The notes beneath the pieces are model-generated. The model saw nothing but the letters and a program-made list of their open reading frames with translations, was not told the DNA's origin and ran no database searches. Positions 52,403 through 58,271 of a DNA stretch of 64,000 nucleotides are shown here, one piece after another (the first letter of the stretch is position 1; each line of letters opens with the position of its first letter). Origin of the DNA: Actinokineospora bangkokensis (GTDB lineage: Bacteria > Actinomycetota > Actinomycetes > Mycobacteriales > Pseudonocardiaceae). Both the position numbers and the translations under genes were made by a program. The stretch lies in NCBI RefSeq assembly GCF_001940455.1, contig NZ_MKQR01000021.1, forward strand, positions 124,001 to 188,000, read 5' to 3'.

Positions 52403-55012
52403 CTAGCCAGCGCCCAAGCAGATGAAGGGGCGGCGGTAGGGGTCCTGGGCGATGGTGGCGGCCAAAGCCCGAGCGGGGGTGGCGCCATCGGCCAAGGCCT
52501 GGTGGTACTCGGCCATGGCGTTGGCGGCGGCCGCGTCACCCACGCGGCTGGTGGCGGCCACCACGGTGCGCACCCCGCCCGCCAGCAGGGCGCCCGCGTA
52601 CCCCAGGGCCTCGTCCCCTGGGCGCACGTAGTTCAGCGCCAGCTCGCAGGCGGCGAGCACGACCTGCCTCGGGGGTTGGCGCAGGCGGGTGACCTCGTAG
52701 GCGAAGAGGGGGCCGTCGGCCAGTTCCAGGCGGGAGAACAGGGCGTTGGTGGGTTCGTGCTCACCGTGGGCGGCGAGGTGGGCCAGCGCGGCGCCGTCGA
52801 GGGAGTCGAGGACGGCGCTGACGGTGGCCGAGCGCTCGTCCATCAGCACCGCGCCGGGGTAGACCGCGAGCAACCGCTCGTCCTCCGCGACCTGGCCGGT
52901 CAGGTGCGGGCCCCTGGCCAGCAGGGTGGAGCCGCCTGAAGAGGCCGGGGACTCCTCGGCGGTGAGCCAGGCCGTCGCGGAGGGGGCGACGACGACCGAC
53001 CGTCCGCGCAGGGAGGGCAGGCTGCCCCACGGGACCGCGTAGAGGGGGCCGGTGGGCACGACGACGACCTCGCGGTCACCGATGCTGGGCAGCAGGGGGC
53101 GCAGGAGCTGGTCGTCGAGCTTGGCGGCGGAGCGGGCGGCGGAGGCCTTGACGACGTCGACGACCGGTGGGGGCAGCGTGTCGGGGGCCAGCACGTCGAG
53201 GTCGGCGTGCAGGCGGGCGGCCTGCTCGGCGGCCTCGGCGAAGTCCCCGAGGCGCAGCAGGTCGGTGTGGTCGGTGGTGGCGACGACGGCGAGCAGCTCG
53301 CCGTCGGTGGTGGCGAAGGAGACCAGGGCCCGGCGGCCCAGCGCGCCGGTGACGCGGGCGAGGGTGGCGACCGGGCGGGGGCTGCCGACGGCCACGGCCG
53401 ACCAGCCGCTCTGGTAGACCTCGCGCTCCAGCAGCGCGCTCTGCTTCTCCAGGCGGTCCACCGGCCTGCCCGCGAGCCGGGCCGACTGCACGGCGCGCTT
53501 GGTGTAGCGCAGCTCGGCCGCCTTGGCGGCGACCTGCGGGGGGAGGCTGACCGGCAGCGGTTCGTAGCGGTAGACCTGCGCGCGGGTGCGCTCCAGCCAG
53601 TCGAAGAGCACCCGGGCGTCGGGGCGGCGGCGGTCGAGGACGTGGCGCACGGCCAGCTCCCCGAGCTCCTGGCCGTGCACGGCGGTGCCGCACACCAGCT
53701 CCATGCCGCCCATCCGGTCGCGGACCTCGCCCAGCTCCTGCAGGCCCGCCCTGGCCTCGTCGAGGGCGCGGCGCGGGACCCCGGTCTCGATGGCCAGCTC
53801 CGCCCGGCACAGCCGCAGCAGCATCCGGTGGTCGACGGGGGTGGTCGAGCGGGGCCGGGGCACCTCGCGCAGCAGGGCGCGGGCGGCGTCGACCTCGCCG
53901 CGGCGCAGCAGCATGCGGGTGGCCAGCAGCAGGGCCAGGGCGCGCTCGTCGGACAGGCCCAGCTCGCCCAGCTCGGCGGCCAGCCGCTGCGCCCTGGCGA
54001 CCAGGGTGGCGGGCGGGGTGCGCCGGGTGTCGACCACCGACCAGGCCTGGGCGCGGACCGCGGCCAGTTCCGCGATGGCCGCCCAGCGCCGGTTGCCGCG
54101 CTTGGTGAACCCGTCGCGGGCGGCCCTGGCGCGCTTCTGCGCCGCGTCCGGGTCGCCGCCGAGCAGGGCCGCGGCGGCGCGGGCGACCTGGGCCTCGGCC
54201 AGGTCCTGCCCGCCGCGCTGCTTGCGCAGCACCGGCAGCGCCTCGTCGAGGTTGCGGGCGGCCTCGTCGGCCAGGCCCGCGGCGAGCATCGCGCGGGCCT
54301 GGTCCAGGCGCACCACCGGCAGCAGGCTCGGGGCCAGGTCGGCGCAGATGCGGGCGGACTCCTCGTAGCGGCGCAGCGCGGTGGGCATGTCGCCGGAGAG
54401 GTAAGCCAGGTAGCCCTGGTTGTGCCGGGCCTTCATGGCGATGATCGGGTCGAGGTCGTGCTCGGCGACCAGCCGCGCGCACCGCTCGGCCTCGGCGTCG
54501 GCGGCGGTGGTGGCGCCCAGGCCGATGTGCGCGAGGCTGCGGTTGAGGTGCAGGATCGCCAGCACGCTGGGCTGCCCGACGCCCGCGGCGAGGTCGCGCT
54601 CCAGCTCGTCGGCGATCTCGTCTAGGGTGCCCAGGCCCTCCTCGGTGCGCCCCACCCGGATGAGCTGGAAACCCCGCTGCTCGCGGGAGAGCAGGTGCAA
54701 CTCCTTGCGCAGCACCGGGTCGGCCAGGTCGTCGAGCAGCCGGTCGGCGGCGTCGAGCCGGGCCAGGCCGCGGTCGACCTCGCCCACCTCGGTGTCGGCG
54801 TAGGAGGCGGTGACCAGCACCCGGATGCGCACGGCGAGCAGGTCCTGGTCGGCGGGGGCGCGGGCGATGAGCTCCAGCGCCTGCTCGGCCAGCGACCGGG
54901 CGGTGGCGAACTGGTAGGCGTAGACCGCCTTGCGCTCGCGCTCCCACAGGGCGGTGGCGCGGGACAGGGCGGTCCGCCCGCGCGCCCGCACCGCCCCAGG
55001 TCGACCCGCCAT
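52403..55012 (-). CDS. TPR-CHAT caspase-like protease
   Basis: An 869-residue protein. Residues ~20-480 are helical repeats of TPR type (AVYAYQFATARSLAEQALEL, NQGYLAYLSGDMPTALRRYEES, and others). The C-terminal ~300 residues are a CHAT domain, a clan CD (caspase/separase-like) protease; the catalytic His is in LAAHGEH (~749) and Cys in VLAACELA (~789), both intact. No signal peptide or membrane segment. A TACTGT -10 at 55019-55024 lies 6 nt before the ATG, so it may have its own leaderless transcript. It is immediately downstream of a cytoplasmic S8 protease gene. Known CHAT proteins act in conflict systems by cutting effectors after a trigger; its target here is unknown. Confidence 0.88.
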   Translation of the reverse strand: MAGRPGAVRARGRTALSRATALWERERKAVYAYQFATARSLAEQALELIARAPADQDLLAVRIRVLVTASYADTEVGEVDRGLARLDAADRLLDDLADPVLRKELHLLSREQRGFQLIRVGRTEEGLGTLDEIADELERDLAAGVGQPSVLAILHLNRSLAHIGLGATTAADAEAERCARLVAEHDLDPIIAMKARHNQGYLAYLSGDMPTALRRYEESARICADLAPSLLPVVRLDQARAMLAAGLADEAARNLDEALPVLRKQRGGQDLAEAQVARAAAALLGGDPDAAQKRARAARDGFTKRGNRRWAAIAELAAVRAQAWSVVDTRRTPPATLVARAQRLAAELGELGLSDERALALLLATRMLLRRGEVDAARALLREVPRPRSTTPVDHRMLLRLCRAELAIETGVPRRALDEARAGLQELGEVRDRMGGMELVCGTAVHGQELGELAVRHVLDRRRPDARVLFDWLERTRAQVYRYEPLPVSLPPQVAAKAAELRYTKRAVQSARLAGRPVDRLEKQSALLEREVYQSGWSAVAVGSPRPVATLARVTGALGRRALVSFATTDGELLAVVATTDHTDLLRLGDFAEAAEQAARLHADLDVLAPDTLPPPVVDVVKASAARSAAKLDDQLLRPLLPSIGDREVVVVPTGPLYAVPWGSLPSLRGRSVVVAPSATAWLTAEESPASSGGSTLLARGPHLTGQVAEDERLLAVYPGAVLMDERSATVSAVLDSLDGAALAHLAAHGEHEPTNALFSRLELADGPLFAYEVTRLRQPPRQVVLAACELALNYVRPGDEALGYAGALLAGGVRTVVAATSRVGDAAAANAMAEYHQALADGATPARALAATIAQDPYRRPFICLGAG

Positions 55013-55057
55013 GGGGTGACAGTACCCACCGGCGCACGCGCGTTGTCCCGGGCGTTG

Positions 55058-55107
55058 CGCGCCTCAGCCGTCCGGTCGGGCGCGCTGGACCGGACGGCTG
55101 AGGCGCG
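55058..55107 (-). terminator. Terminator between the S8 and CHAT protease genes
   Basis: A 20 bp perfect stem (from CGCGCCTCAGCCG to its complement) with a 10 nt loop, 7 bp after the S8 stop. No U-tract. It should at least lower read-through into the CHAT gene. Confidence 0.7.
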
Positions 55108-55113
55108 AACCGG

Positions 55114-56814
55114 TCAGTCCGTGATCCAGCCCAGGCCGCGCAGGTCGCCGTCGGTGGCCTCCAGCGCGGTGCGGGCGCGGGCCACCCGGTCGGCGTCGGA
55201 GGTGGCGTCCTCGGACTCGACCAGCCTGCGCGCGAGCATGCCCGCCACCACCGGGGTGGCGAAGGAGGTGCCCGCCCACACCGCGAACCCGGTGGTGAGG
55301 TCGTCCGGGTCGGGCGAGGTGCGCGCCATCCGGGGGTTGCCGTCGCCGGGGGTGGACAGCCCGCAGCCCTCGGGGCCCTGCCACAGCGGCACGGTGGAGA
55401 CCACGGCGTTGCCCGGGGCCCAGCGGGTGACCCAGTCGCCCTCGTTGGAGAAGGCGGCGACGGTGCGGCCGGAGGCGTTGAGCGCGCCGACGGCGACCAG
55501 CAGCGGGTTGGTGGTGTTGGAGCCGTCGGGGTTGAGCGCCAGGGCGGCGGGGACGAACGGGCGGGTGGTGGCGTCGTTGCCCGCGGCGGCGACCACGACC
55601 ACGCCCATGTCGGTCAGCTTGCGCACGGCCTCGGCCAGCAGCAGCCCGGTCTGGTGGTCGGTGTGCTCGGGGTAGAAGCCCAGCGACACCGACACCACGT
55701 CCACCAGGTCCGCGGTGACGCCGTTGTCCAGGGCGTTGCGCACCCGCTGGCGCAGCCACTCCAGGGCCAGCAGCACCGAGGCGTCGGTGGTGATGCCGTC
55801 GGTGTGCAGCACGCGCAGGGACAGCACGCGCGAGTCGGGGCAGTTCTGGAACACCAGGCCGCTGACGAAGGTGCCGTGCCCGGAGTGCGAGTCGGTGACC
55901 CCCAGCAGCGGCTGGAGCACGTCGCGCTGCTCGGTCGGGGACACCAGGGTGGGCATGACCCCGCCGGTGGCGTCGGTCAGCGTGGACTCCAGGTCGGCCA
56001 GCAGCAGCTGGAACTCCGGCGACACCTCGACCACCGGGTCCTCGGCCACCGGGCCGACCCGCAGCCACGGGTGCTCGCCGATGCCGGTGTCGAGCACCGC
56101 CACCACCGGGCGGCGCCCGGAGGGCAGGGTGGTCGGGTCGGCGGTGCGGTGCGGCTCGGGCAGGAACACCCGCACCGGGTTGCGCGCGCCGGTGGCCATG
56201 GCGACCCCGCCGCCGCCGACGCCGGAGCCGAACGGCACGCCCGACCCGAACGGCACACCGGACCCGAACGGCACACCGGAGCCGAAGGGCACGCCCGAGC
56301 CGAACGGGGCGCCCTCCATCTCCACCGCGGCGGCGTGGGTCAGGTGCTCCAGGCCGATGCCGTCCAGCAGCTCGTCGTCGAACTTGCGGCGCAGGCGCAC
56401 CAGCACCCGCCAGGGGTCGGGGGTCGCGTCGGCGAGGGAGTCCTCCAGGCAGCGCAGCAGCACCGGCACCGCGTAGCCGGGGTCGAACGCGGCGACGGCG
56501 GCCTGCCAGCGCTCGGTGGCGGGCAACCGCACGACCAGCTCGGCGCCCAGCGGGGCCAGGGCGGCGTTGAACTCCGCGATCCGCTCGGGGTCGGTGGCCA
56601 GGCGCAGCGGCACCAGCAGGGTGTCGGCCCGGTAGGCGGTGGAGTCGGGCCTGCGGTGGTCGCGGCCCGGCAGTGCGGTGGCGGGGTTGAGGAACCGCGC
56701 GCGGTGGCGCAGGAGCACCGAGGAGGACGGGCCCGCCACCTCGGACACGCCGAGCGCGTCCGCGCCGTCGGCGTCGGTGGTCTGCTGGTCGCCGCTTGGG
56801 CTCATGCTCGCCAT
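55114..56814 (-). CDS. Cytoplasmic subtilisin-like (S8) protease next to CHAT
   Basis: A 566-residue S8 protease with the catalytic triad Asp ~242 (VVAVLDTGIG), His ~313 (SGHGTFVSG) and Ser ~517 (WAGTSFATP); the oxyanion Asn is in AAAGND. Unlike secreted subtilisins it has no signal peptide or propeptide-like region. Residues 1-~165 form an unrecognised N-terminal domain, then five PFGSGV repeats (170-199), then the protease domain, with a ~70-residue Asp-to-His spacer. ATG with GGGGTGG upstream is favoured; an in-frame GTG at 56886 would add 24 residues. The CHAT gene follows 101 bp downstream. Confidence 0.87.
   Translation of the reverse strand: MASMSPSGDQQTTDADGADALGVSEVAGPSSSVLLRHRARFLNPATALPGRDHRRPDSTAYRADTLLVPLRLATDPERIAEFNAALAPLGAELVVRLPATERWQAAVAAFDPGYAVPVLLRCLEDSLADATPDPWRVLVRLRRKFDDELLDGIGLEHLTHAAAVEMEGAPFGSGVPFGSGVPFGSGVPFGSGVPFGSGVGGGGVAMATGARNPVRVFLPEPHRTADPTTLPSGRRPVVAVLDTGIGEHPWLRVGPVAEDPVVEVSPEFQLLLADLESTLTDATGGVMPTLVSPTEQRDVLQPLLGVTDSHSGHGTFVSGLVFQNCPDSRVLSLRVLHTDGITTDASVLLALEWLRQRVRNALDNGVTADLVDVVSVSLGFYPEHTDHQTGLLLAEAVRKLTDMGVVVVAAAGNDATTRPFVPAALALNPDGSNTTNPLLVAVGALNASGRTVAAFSNEGDWVTRWAPGNAVVSTVPLWQGPEGCGLSTPGDGNPRMARTSPDPDDLTTGFAVWAGTSFATPVVAGMLARRLVESEDATSDADRVARARTALEATDGDLRGLGWITD
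56218..56307 (-). repeat. Five 18 bp repeats encoding PFGSGV
   Basis: Perfect-length in-frame tandem array (5 x 18 bp) inside the S8 protease gene, with only silent or third-base changes among units. It forms a flexible Gly/Ser linker just before the catalytic domain. Copy number could vary between strains. Confidence 0.9.
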
Positions 56815-57317
56815 GGATAGCCACCCCGGTGCAGGTTGCAGGTTGTCGGTCACGGCCGGTGCGCGGTCACGCACCCGTCCGCTCACGGGTAGTAGAGCAG
56901 GACGGCCGCCATCAGATACGTCGATGGAGCAACTGCGTGCGTAACGGGTGAACGCCGACCTGTTTCACGACTGGATCCGCCACAAAATGTGATCAGCCCC
57001 GTCACTCACCCACCCGATCAGCCCATGCCGGTGTGACGTGGGCCGATCCGCCGTGGGGACGACCGGCGGTGCGGTAGACGTCGTCACTCAGGTGAGCGAC
57101 GCCGTTCGGGCTGACCCGCGCGGGTGCCGGAGGACTTTTTCCCGGTCGCCGGGGCACGCGCTCGCCGGAACCAGTTCCGGCCCGCCTCGCGCTCCCCTCG
57201 CGGCCCGCTGGTCATCCGGTCGCGGGCACCCGGCGGGCACGCAGGGTGACCGGTGGTGCGGGGCGCGGCCGGGGATAGGGTCGCGTGGTCCCGGCCCAGA
57301 GCAGAGCAGGAGAACCC

Positions 57318-58271
57318 GTGCGCGCCATCCAGATCACCGAGTTCGGCGGCCCCGAGGTGCTGGTGCCCACCGAGCTGCCCGACCCCGTGCCGGGCGAGGG
57401 GGAGGTGCTGCTGGAGGTGTCGCGGGCGGGCATCAACTACGCCGACACGCACAACGCCGAGAACAGCTACCTGGCCCCCGCCTCGCTCCCGCTGGTGCCC
57501 GGCAACGAGGTCGTCGGCACCACCCCGGACGGCAGGCGGCTGGTGTCGATGCTCAACGCGGGCGGGTACGCCGAGCGGGCCGCGGCGCCGCTGGCGATGA
57601 GCTTCGAGGTGCCCGACGGCGTCGACGACCTCACCGCGCTGGGCCTGGTGGTGCAGGGGACGACGGCGTGGCTGCTGCTGCGCACCGCCGCGCACCTCGA
57701 ACCCGGCGAGTCGGTGCTCGTGCACGCGGCCGCGGGCGGGGTCGGCACGCTGGCGGTGCAGCTGGCCAAGGCCATGGGCGCGGGTCGGGTCATCGCCTCG
57801 GCGAGCACCCAGGACAAGCGCGACCTCGCCCTGTCGCTGGGCGCGGACGCGGCCATCGACCCGGCCGAGGAGGACCTGGTCGGGGCCATCCGGGCGGCCA
57901 ACGGCGGCAAGCGGGTCGACGTGGTGCTGGAGATGACCGGCGGGCGGGTCACCGACCAGAGCATCGCCGCGCTGGCCCCGCTGGGGCGCCTGGCGTTCTT
58001 CGGCATGGCCAGCCGGGAGCAGCCCAAGCCGGTGAAGCTGCCGTCGCTGCTGTCGCACTCGACGACGGTCAGCGGGCTGTGGCTGCCGCACGCCTTCGGC
58101 AAGCCGGGACTGATGCAGCGGGCGGTCGACGAGCTGATGGCCGCCGCGCTGGAGGGCAGCCTGAAGGTGGTCGGCGGCGGGGAGTACGCGCTGGCCGACG
58201 CCCGCACCGCGCACGAGGACCTGCGGGCGCGCCGGACCGTGGGCAAGCTGCTGCTGGACCCGACCCGCTGA
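57318..58271 (+). CDS. NADPH:quinone oxidoreductase-like (zinc-less MDR)
   Basis: A 317-residue medium-chain reductase of the quinone-oxidoreductase branch: start MRAIQITEFGGPEVLVPTELPDP, a Rossmann motif VLVHAAAGGVGTLAVQLAKAMGA, and no zinc-binding cysteines. GTG with AGGAGA 5 nt upstream. The 431-503 bp before it (from 56815/56887) shows only the divergent S8 leader region and no supported gene; a TAGGGT box lies ~40 bp upstream of the start. Substrate unknown. Confidence 0.9.
   Translation: MRAIQITEFGGPEVLVPTELPDPVPGEGEVLLEVSRAGINYADTHNAENSYLAPASLPLVPGNEVVGTTPDGRRLVSMLNAGGYAERAAAPLAMSFEVPDGVDDLTALGLVVQGTTAWLLLRTAAHLEPGESVLVHAAAGGVGTLAVQLAKAMGAGRVIASASTQDKRDLALSLGADAAIDPAEEDLVGAIRAANGGKRVDVVLEMTGGRVTDQSIAALAPLGRLAFFGMASREQPKPVKLPSLLSHSTTVSGLWLPHAFGKPGLMQRAVDELMAAALEGSLKVVGGGEYALADARTAHEDLRARRTVGKLLLDPTR

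Follow-up and report, generated by a model that had tools for sequence, protein, structure and literature searches.

What do two proteases without an export signal do side by side in an actinobacterium? The question is raised by a stretch of 64,000 nucleotides from Actinokineospora bangkokensis (contig NZ_MKQR01000021.1, positions 124,001 to 188,000; hereafter the window), in which a gene for an S8 (subtilisin-like) protease is followed on the minus strand, 101 bp downstream, by a gene for a protease that joins a TPR half to a CHAT domain. A reading made from the letters alone (the sequence-only reading) had taken the two for a conflict module. We tentatively read the pair instead as the proteolytic half of a switch acting on an extracytoplasmic function (ECF) sigma factor of the ECF54 kind, a reading whose chances we put somewhat short of even. 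We found that the pair is conserved together with an ECF sigma factor and a small protein, here called Reg; that in the window's genus the resulting module is split with both halves kept; that an element is common to the upstream regions; and that the S8 protein carries a run of repeats that selection keeps identical.

The four-gene module and its split in the genus

Pfam matches placed the two proteins in the S8 and CHAT families, as first proposed, and the catalytic residues are intact: Asp242, His313 and Ser517 are invariant in 50/50 aligned S8 proteins, and His749 and Cys789 in 46/46 aligned CHAT proteins. Simple hydropathy revealed no hydrophobic leader in either protein, in keeping with the earlier statement that both lack a signal peptide. 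The TPR sensor half that had also been described is recognized by Pfam only weakly, through a TPR_12 match (E = 0.00095) that lies below the cutoff of that family.

The sequence-only reading had called for a survey of the pairing in other genomes and of a third linked gene; the pairing proved to reach far beyond the clade, and a third linked gene exists. The S8 query detected 22 loci in 21 of 150 family genomes (E ≤ 1e-20), and in 22/22 of them a CHAT match lay on the same strand no more than 1.6 kb downstream. In the window and nine other loci (group A), CHAT is the next gene after S8; in group B (12 loci, of which 11 were fetched, G147 being left out), S8 and CHAT are separated by one or two small genes. 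The CHAT query had relatives in 99 of the 150 genomes, a wider distribution than that of S8.

Across the phylum, we took the best 80 of 399 confirmed S8 loci, one genome per species, a set that leans to close relatives; by record titles all 80 are from Actinomycetota, and the closest named relatives are Actinokineospora species. Companion genes were counted by profile scans of six-frame open reading frames and not from gene-caller output, a gene caller having missed some sigma genes; the sigma gene of L063, unlisted by the profile scan, was shown by Pfam. The linked gene that had been sought is an ECF sigma factor, and a fourth, small gene encodes Reg (~160 aa). Within these 80 loci, the same gene cluster holds sigma in 72, Reg in 72 and CHAT in 76 (a fragment in L134). 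The module thus consists of S8, the ECF sigma factor, Reg and TPR-CHAT in two gene orders, sigma-Reg-S8-CHAT (38 loci) and S8-sigma-Reg-CHAT (28 loci), with S8-CHAT in 5 loci and other arrangements in 9. Two of the four loci without CHAT (L127 and L144) end at contig ends, and a third is L152, which is taken up below. The fourth, L125, a lone S8 gene in Actinokineospora inagensis, was rejected as a case of S8 without CHAT, being a decayed duplicate in a genome that holds an intact pair. Group B agrees with this picture, with Reg in 11/11 and the ECF sigma factor in 9/11 of the loci fetched.

We also drew Actinomycetota evenly (396 genomes, with that of the window and one congener in the draw). 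S8 (E ≤ 1e-60) occurred in 9/396 genomes and was accompanied by Reg and CHAT in 9/9, against overall frequencies of 31/396 for Reg and 49/396 for CHAT; the nine genomes represent five genera and hence are not nine independent events, and in one of the nine (G385) ~4 kb separate S8 from CHAT. The sigma factor is of the ECF type, as TIGR02937 scored above its cutoff in 3/3 proteins scanned. Among 71 neighboring sigma and Reg genes, a possible ATGA overlap was seen in 40 and a one-base overlap in 4, and 18 more lie within 10 nt of each other.

In the window's genome, sigma-Reg sits on another contig than S8-CHAT. The same holds for group A as a whole, in that 10/10 genomes have intact sigma and Reg genes side by side at a second place. 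Within the stretch read, no CHAT gene lies beside them in 7/10 (in G045 a contig of 9.8 kb), and the remaining three, G148, G115 and G132, have a sigma-Reg-CHAT locus in addition to S8-CHAT. A. inagensis, A. globicatena, Microlunatus flavus and Leekyejoonella antrihumi likewise carry S8-CHAT and, in the stretch read, a CHAT-less sigma-Reg at separate places. Altogether, 14/14 S8-CHAT genomes checked keep sigma-Reg elsewhere, and in 11/14 the stretch read shows no CHAT next to it. Duplication of the four-gene module followed by complementary loss would explain this split.

In the CHAT tree, the nine group-A CHATs form one clade (100/100). It lies within a larger clade (100/100) that also holds two lone CHATs and those from sigma-Reg-CHAT operons, with group B placed separately. 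The two lone genes (L229, 9626-12214; L053, 1498-4035) have no S8, sigma or Reg gene in the 19.9 kb and 5.6 kb read, and the start of the gene preceding the L229 CHAT reads by eye like clpB. A second, distant set was noticed in the window's own genome, outside the window (L119, contig C26, 8619-12852), where an ECF sigma factor and a short TPR-CHAT are accompanied by a convergent gene for an S8-like protein that has one GTPVLHG motif ahead of the catalytic domain.

The hinge array of the S8 protein

The hinge between the N-terminal and catalytic domains of S8, earlier described as Gly/Ser, consists of the hexapeptide PFGSGV repeated five times in tandem without change, and a pattern search found no second occurrence of this tandem pattern in the source genome. 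Counting as an array any 4- to 10-residue unit present in two or more tandem copies at this position, we found one in 66 of 98 distinct S8 genes (drawn from 102 sequences, four genes occurring twice). Other units include NPFTRT (three copies), NPYGST (six), NPFKA (seven), PYYAGV (five) and GWSDGI (six). The unit varies between lineages and can be common to relatives, NPFTRT occurring in 8 loci and PFGNGV in 4, and several S8 proteins without an array hold spaced copies, such as GTPWEASG..GAPWEASG.

Divergence between copies was computed for 46 different units, one array each, with L125 left out. Copies differ at 0.505 of synonymous sites and at 0.016 of nonsynonymous sites, a ratio of nonsynonymous to synonymous differences (pN/pS) of 0.032 (bootstrap, 0.014 to 0.055), and in 35/46 arrays all copies are identical at the protein level. 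Recent duplication or gene conversion would leave far fewer synonymous differences; selection on every copy would account for them. Since the copies stay identical in protein despite drifted codons, something reads every one of them. Proline is present in 43/46 units and is followed by F, Y, W, H, L, M, I or V in 41/46, the repeat period is six in 37/46, and in 33 of the 66 array-bearing proteins the first Pro-hydrophobic pair lies exactly 7 residues past a conserved histidine. A textbook subtilisin site has proline at P2 and a large hydrophobic residue at P1. The array therefore looks like a series of self-cleavage sites, which suggests that its units are cut by S8 itself.

We looked for the units in the partner proteins. 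Among 214 proteins examined (S8 included), sharing with sigma, Reg or CHAT amounted to chance-like 4-mers in 3 non-S8 proteins, and the idea that the units are motifs common to these partners was rejected on that account. Cleavage of every unit by CHAT at a fixed P1 residue is not our leading idea, as the units share Pro-hydrophobic only.

The TPR half of CHAT is a natural candidate for a reader of the array, and we compared distances between array units with distances between protein parts. In 35 loci selected for a six-residue unit, a long CHAT, sigma and Reg, the partial Mantel r between unit and TPR distances was 0.337 (p = 0.001), and in 46 loci selected for six-residue units with a long CHAT only it was 0.294. 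Unit distance tracked TPR distance better than that of other parts in these two settings. In the 46-locus set, variability-matched columns gave 0.247 for TPR and 0.161 for S8, and ranks shrank the effect (TPR, 0.184; CHATcat, 0.151); within one clade of 17 loci it was abolished, the signal shifting to S8 (S8, 0.315; TPR, 0.055). The coevolution results are thus mixed, and the TPR half may be the reader.

Two further loci bear on the array. The unlinked duplicate of A. inagensis (L125, 9998-11674) is altered in the region of its Ser motif, and its array is half decayed; 4/8 of the units of this S8, which has no CHAT neighbor, are degenerate, and the paired S8 of the same genome has five perfect units, a single case. 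A metagenome-assembled genome of Nitriliruptorales (L190, 9590-21120) has two neighboring modules whose S8 arrays differ (HPLYDG in four copies, PFTSGG in six), as would be expected if each S8-CHAT pair had a private peptide.

The domain in front of the array was called unrecognized from the start, and it stayed so. It has no significant Pfam or PDB match (best PDB E = 0.098), none at all in the case of the window's own, and the idea that it is a known propeptide was rejected for want of a match. The N-terminal domains of 24 relatives gave single weak Pfam matches to five families (best E = 0.0078), and Inhibitor_I9, the subtilisin propeptide, was absent from their matches at E values up to 5. 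The strand and helix pattern seen in the alignment suggests a propeptide-like domain. By sequence search, the closest solved relative of the catalytic domain is the intracellular subtilisin 7xr8 (E = 6.5e-22), and PADLOC models returned a generic "subtilase" match (E = 3.2e-12) and a weak stretch of IetS (E = 0.002) for S8 and no match for the window's CHAT. S8 resembles the intracellular subtilisins in its catalytic domain and in having no visible signal peptide, and it differs from them in its unrecognized N-terminal domain, its tandem hinge array and its CHAT partner.

Upstream elements, transcription and chromosomal place

The S8 upstream regions of eight genus genomes have in common a bipartite element, CGTTACG-N17-GA(C/T)GTATCT. 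Elsewhere in these eight genomes we found no exact site; as the pattern was drawn from the same eight regions, only this absence elsewhere is informative. A regulon search allowing two mismatches gave 4 sites, compared with 5 in a reversed control. Across the module, GTATC(A/T) precedes the first gene in 39/39 sigma-first and 26/40 S8-first loci, and the 7-mer (T/C)GTATC(A/T) does so in 32/39 and 23/40, compared with 14/372 of the regions upstream of other genes within these loci; as the loci are related, the p-values overstate this enrichment. G030 has an S8 element similar to that of the genus. We take the GTATC element as a candidate promoter that could keep S8-CHAT of the genus under the control of sigma, a proposal that the three exceptions discussed below weaken. 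In L164, L152 and L168, GTATCAG is mirrored upstream as CTGATAC, forming an inverted pair ~20 to 30 nt apart that would also fit a dyad operator.

A GC-rich, terminator-like hairpin without a T run lies between S8 and CHAT in the window, and the intergenic fold has z < -2 in 8/10 group-A regions, the window included (mononucleotide shuffles; L055 left out). TACTGT, a candidate -10 box, stands 6 nt before the CHAT start, which may be leaderless. Given the hairpin and this box, S8 and CHAT are probably separate transcripts in the window. The S8 start itself is probably the ATG at 56814, where alignment with relatives places it, 72 bases inside the start at 56886 that had been chosen before. Table 1 collects the coordinates.

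Table 1. Features of the S8 and TPR-CHAT genes, in window positions
Feature	Position	Strand	Basis or remark
S8 (subtilisin-like) protease gene	55114..56814	-	566 aa from ATG 56814; Pfam Peptidase_S8, E 1.8e-23
S8 N-terminal domain	56344..56721	-	Alignment of relatives; no known family
Hinge array, five identical PFGSGV hexapeptides	56218..56307	-	Between S8 N-terminal and catalytic domains
Catalytic Asp242 of S8	56089..56091	-	ATG numbering
Catalytic His313 of S8	55876..55878	-	ATG numbering
Catalytic Ser517 of S8	55264..55266	-	ATG numbering
Upstream element, candidate S8 promoter	56914..56946	-	Pattern from 8 genus genomes
GC-rich hairpin between S8 and CHAT, terminator-like, no T run	55059..55106	-	Intergenic fold z -4.6
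TACTGT, candidate -10 box	55019..55024	-	Sequence reading; 6 nt before CHAT start
TPR-CHAT protease gene	52403..55012	-	869 aa; Pfam CHAT, E 1.1e-24
Catalytic His749 of CHAT	52766..52768	-	Alignment
Catalytic Cys789 of CHAT	52646..52648	-	Alignment

The pair had also been said to interrupt an otherwise conserved order between fadD and mnmA/iscS. On the iscS-mnmA side this proved mistaken, as the window and 11 of the 12 other clade loci examined have iscS-mnmA homologues a short way upstream of S8-CHAT; in the twelfth, L054, the contig starts 2.7 kb upstream of the pair. The homologues in the clade loci share 78 to 89% identity with their counterparts in the window, which Pfam recognizes. In the window an ADH-family (quinone oxidoreductase-like) gene at 57285-58271 separates S8 from mnmA; L056 has this gene in the same place, and we found it in none of the remaining clade loci examined.

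A proposed sigma switch and its alternatives

Proteolytic control has been proposed for ECF54 sigma factors on the strength of the carboxypeptidase, subtilase and CHAT proteins conserved around their genes (PMC8999054, in the portion available). By gene context the module fits that outline, with an ECF sigma factor beside carboxypeptidase-type, subtilase and CHAT proteins: sigma and Reg accompany S8 in 72 loci each, the carboxypeptidase part being tentative, as CarboxypepD_reg scores below its cutoff. The window's own pair departs from the outline in being split from sigma-Reg; no sigma factor stands beside it, and it is a split part and not an intact module. The available portion of that ECF54 text mentions neither hinge arrays nor the upstream element, nor a possible anti-sigma role for Reg.

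In type III-E CRISPR systems, the TPR-CHAT protease Csx29 cuts Csx30, the partner and inhibitor of an ECF sigma factor (PMC10028731, likewise in part). The module resembles this arrangement of Csx29, Csx30 and CASP-sigma in combining a TPR-CHAT protein with catalytic His and Cys, an ECF sigma factor and a linking third protein, Reg standing in place of Csx30. It differs in the size of Reg, Csx30 residues being cited up to 545 in that text, and in its additional S8. The window's CHAT scores 21.9 bits against the NCBIfam Csx29 model, far below the cutoff of 300, and no Cas7-11-like or CRISPR-related gene was seen by eye among the 14 most frequent neighbor clusters of the 80 loci (gRAMP models and CRISPR arrays were not searched for). 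We therefore did not file the module as a Csx29 member. The pair makes better sense, in our view, as the protease half of a sigma switch that resembles Csx29/Csx30/CASP-sigma without CRISPR. We found no description of this parallel for an actinobacterial module, or of the hinge arrays, in the open-access literature searched. TPR-CHAT proteins are common in bacteria, and their triggers and targets are for the most part not known outside type III-E CRISPR.

In such a switch, Reg would hold sigma inactive as a soluble anti-sigma factor. TPR-CHAT would be the sensor-initiator, its TPR half taking a signal and unlocking the CHAT protease as in Csx29, and S8 would be a cytoplasmic proenzyme in which the N-terminal domain is followed by the run of identical Pro-hydrophobic sites. 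These sites would be cut by S8 itself, dock the TPR half of CHAT, or both. The activated proteases would remove Reg, and the freed sigma would switch on the operon behind the GTATC element.

Several findings weigh against this account. L152 is an S8-sigma-Reg locus with no CHAT nearby, a more diverged CHAT lying ~1 Mb away, and some modules (L069 and L070, in the stretch read) have no sigma gene. Sigma-Reg-CHAT operons that lack S8 are common, making up 19 of the 20 top-ranking S8-less CHAT loci (the other is a CHAT alone), so the switch cannot depend on S8. Reg resembles no known anti-sigma family, its only Pfam match being CarboxypepD_reg below cutoff (7/24 members with E ≤ 0.01). By the strict test the array is absent from 32/98 distinct S8 genes, and some lineages have no such motif altogether. 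GTATC(A/T) was not seen upstream of the genus sigma-Reg (with ~160 bp readable in G045, and GTATCC in G100). In G148, G115 and G132, GTATC(A/T) stands before sigma-Reg-CHAT and not before S8-CHAT; this reverse placement means that S8-CHAT is not always under the element, and it led us to lower our estimate for the sigma switch and to raise that for the reading considered next.

That reading makes S8-CHAT a self-contained two-protease effector, in which CHAT cuts the hinge array of S8 like an initiator caspase, S8 then degrades cell proteins, and the split from sigma-Reg is a real loss of contact. Besides the reversed element in those three genomes, it draws on the adjacency of S8 and CHAT even without sigma-Reg (5/80 loci and the ten group-A genomes) and on the position of the array, as a cut between the N-terminal and catalytic domains would release the protease. 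A clan CD protease such as CHAT, however, is expected to prefer P1 residues of the Arg/Lys/Asp/Asn kind, and the units have none in common, their shared feature being Pro-hydrophobic; moreover, every S8-CHAT genome checked has kept sigma-Reg. We consider this reading fairly unlikely, although a caspase-like cascade as such, one protease activating the other, is possible. Nor do we think it likely that the array is an autoprocessing spacer only, S8 cutting its own prodomain junction at redundant copies that no partner reads. The classic P2-P1 preference of subtilisins, matched by most units, and the fixed distance of the first pair from the conserved histidine in half of the array-bearing proteins speak for it, but redundant sites would need no identity at their other residues, and it is these that are held at a pN/pS of about 0.03 while half of the synonymous sites differ.

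The phage-defense or self/non-self conflict module of the sequence-only reading we regard as very improbable. CHAT proteases such as Csx29 do act in conflict systems, and array units that differ by lineage could reflect an arms race. The pair nevertheless occupies a fixed chromosomal site in the window's clade, searches of phage records and of plasmid records with S8 each gave a single weak match, and units are common to related species, as noted for NPFTRT and PFGNGV. By eye, no defense-like gene was seen among the same 14 neighbor clusters, a search made without a defense-model scan, and the published ECF54 context is regulatory. We rejected the idea, as limited checks of mobile or defense context (PADLOC, phage and plasmid records, neighbor clusters) gave no support.

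A bolder form of the sigma switch, which we consider doubtful, gives the array a messenger role. Self-cleavage of S8 would free many copies of a private short peptide, mostly of six residues; the TPR half of the paired CHAT would read the peptide, free or in the array, as its activating ligand; and CHAT would then cut Reg and free the ECF sigma factor. Divergence of peptide and receptor by lineage would insulate parallel systems from each other. RRNPP receptors are TPR proteins that bind short peptides, which are exported and then reimported. Those peptides are comparable in length to the array units, whereas the array lies inside a cytoplasmic protease. If true, such a peptide code would amount to a Csx29 sigma switch gated by a peptide and working without CRISPR. 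For the sigma switch in general, the recurring sigma/Reg/TPR-CHAT/S8 module and its natural split offer candidates for each part: Reg for the target, the operon behind the GTATC element for the output, and the hinge array for a ligand or docking site.

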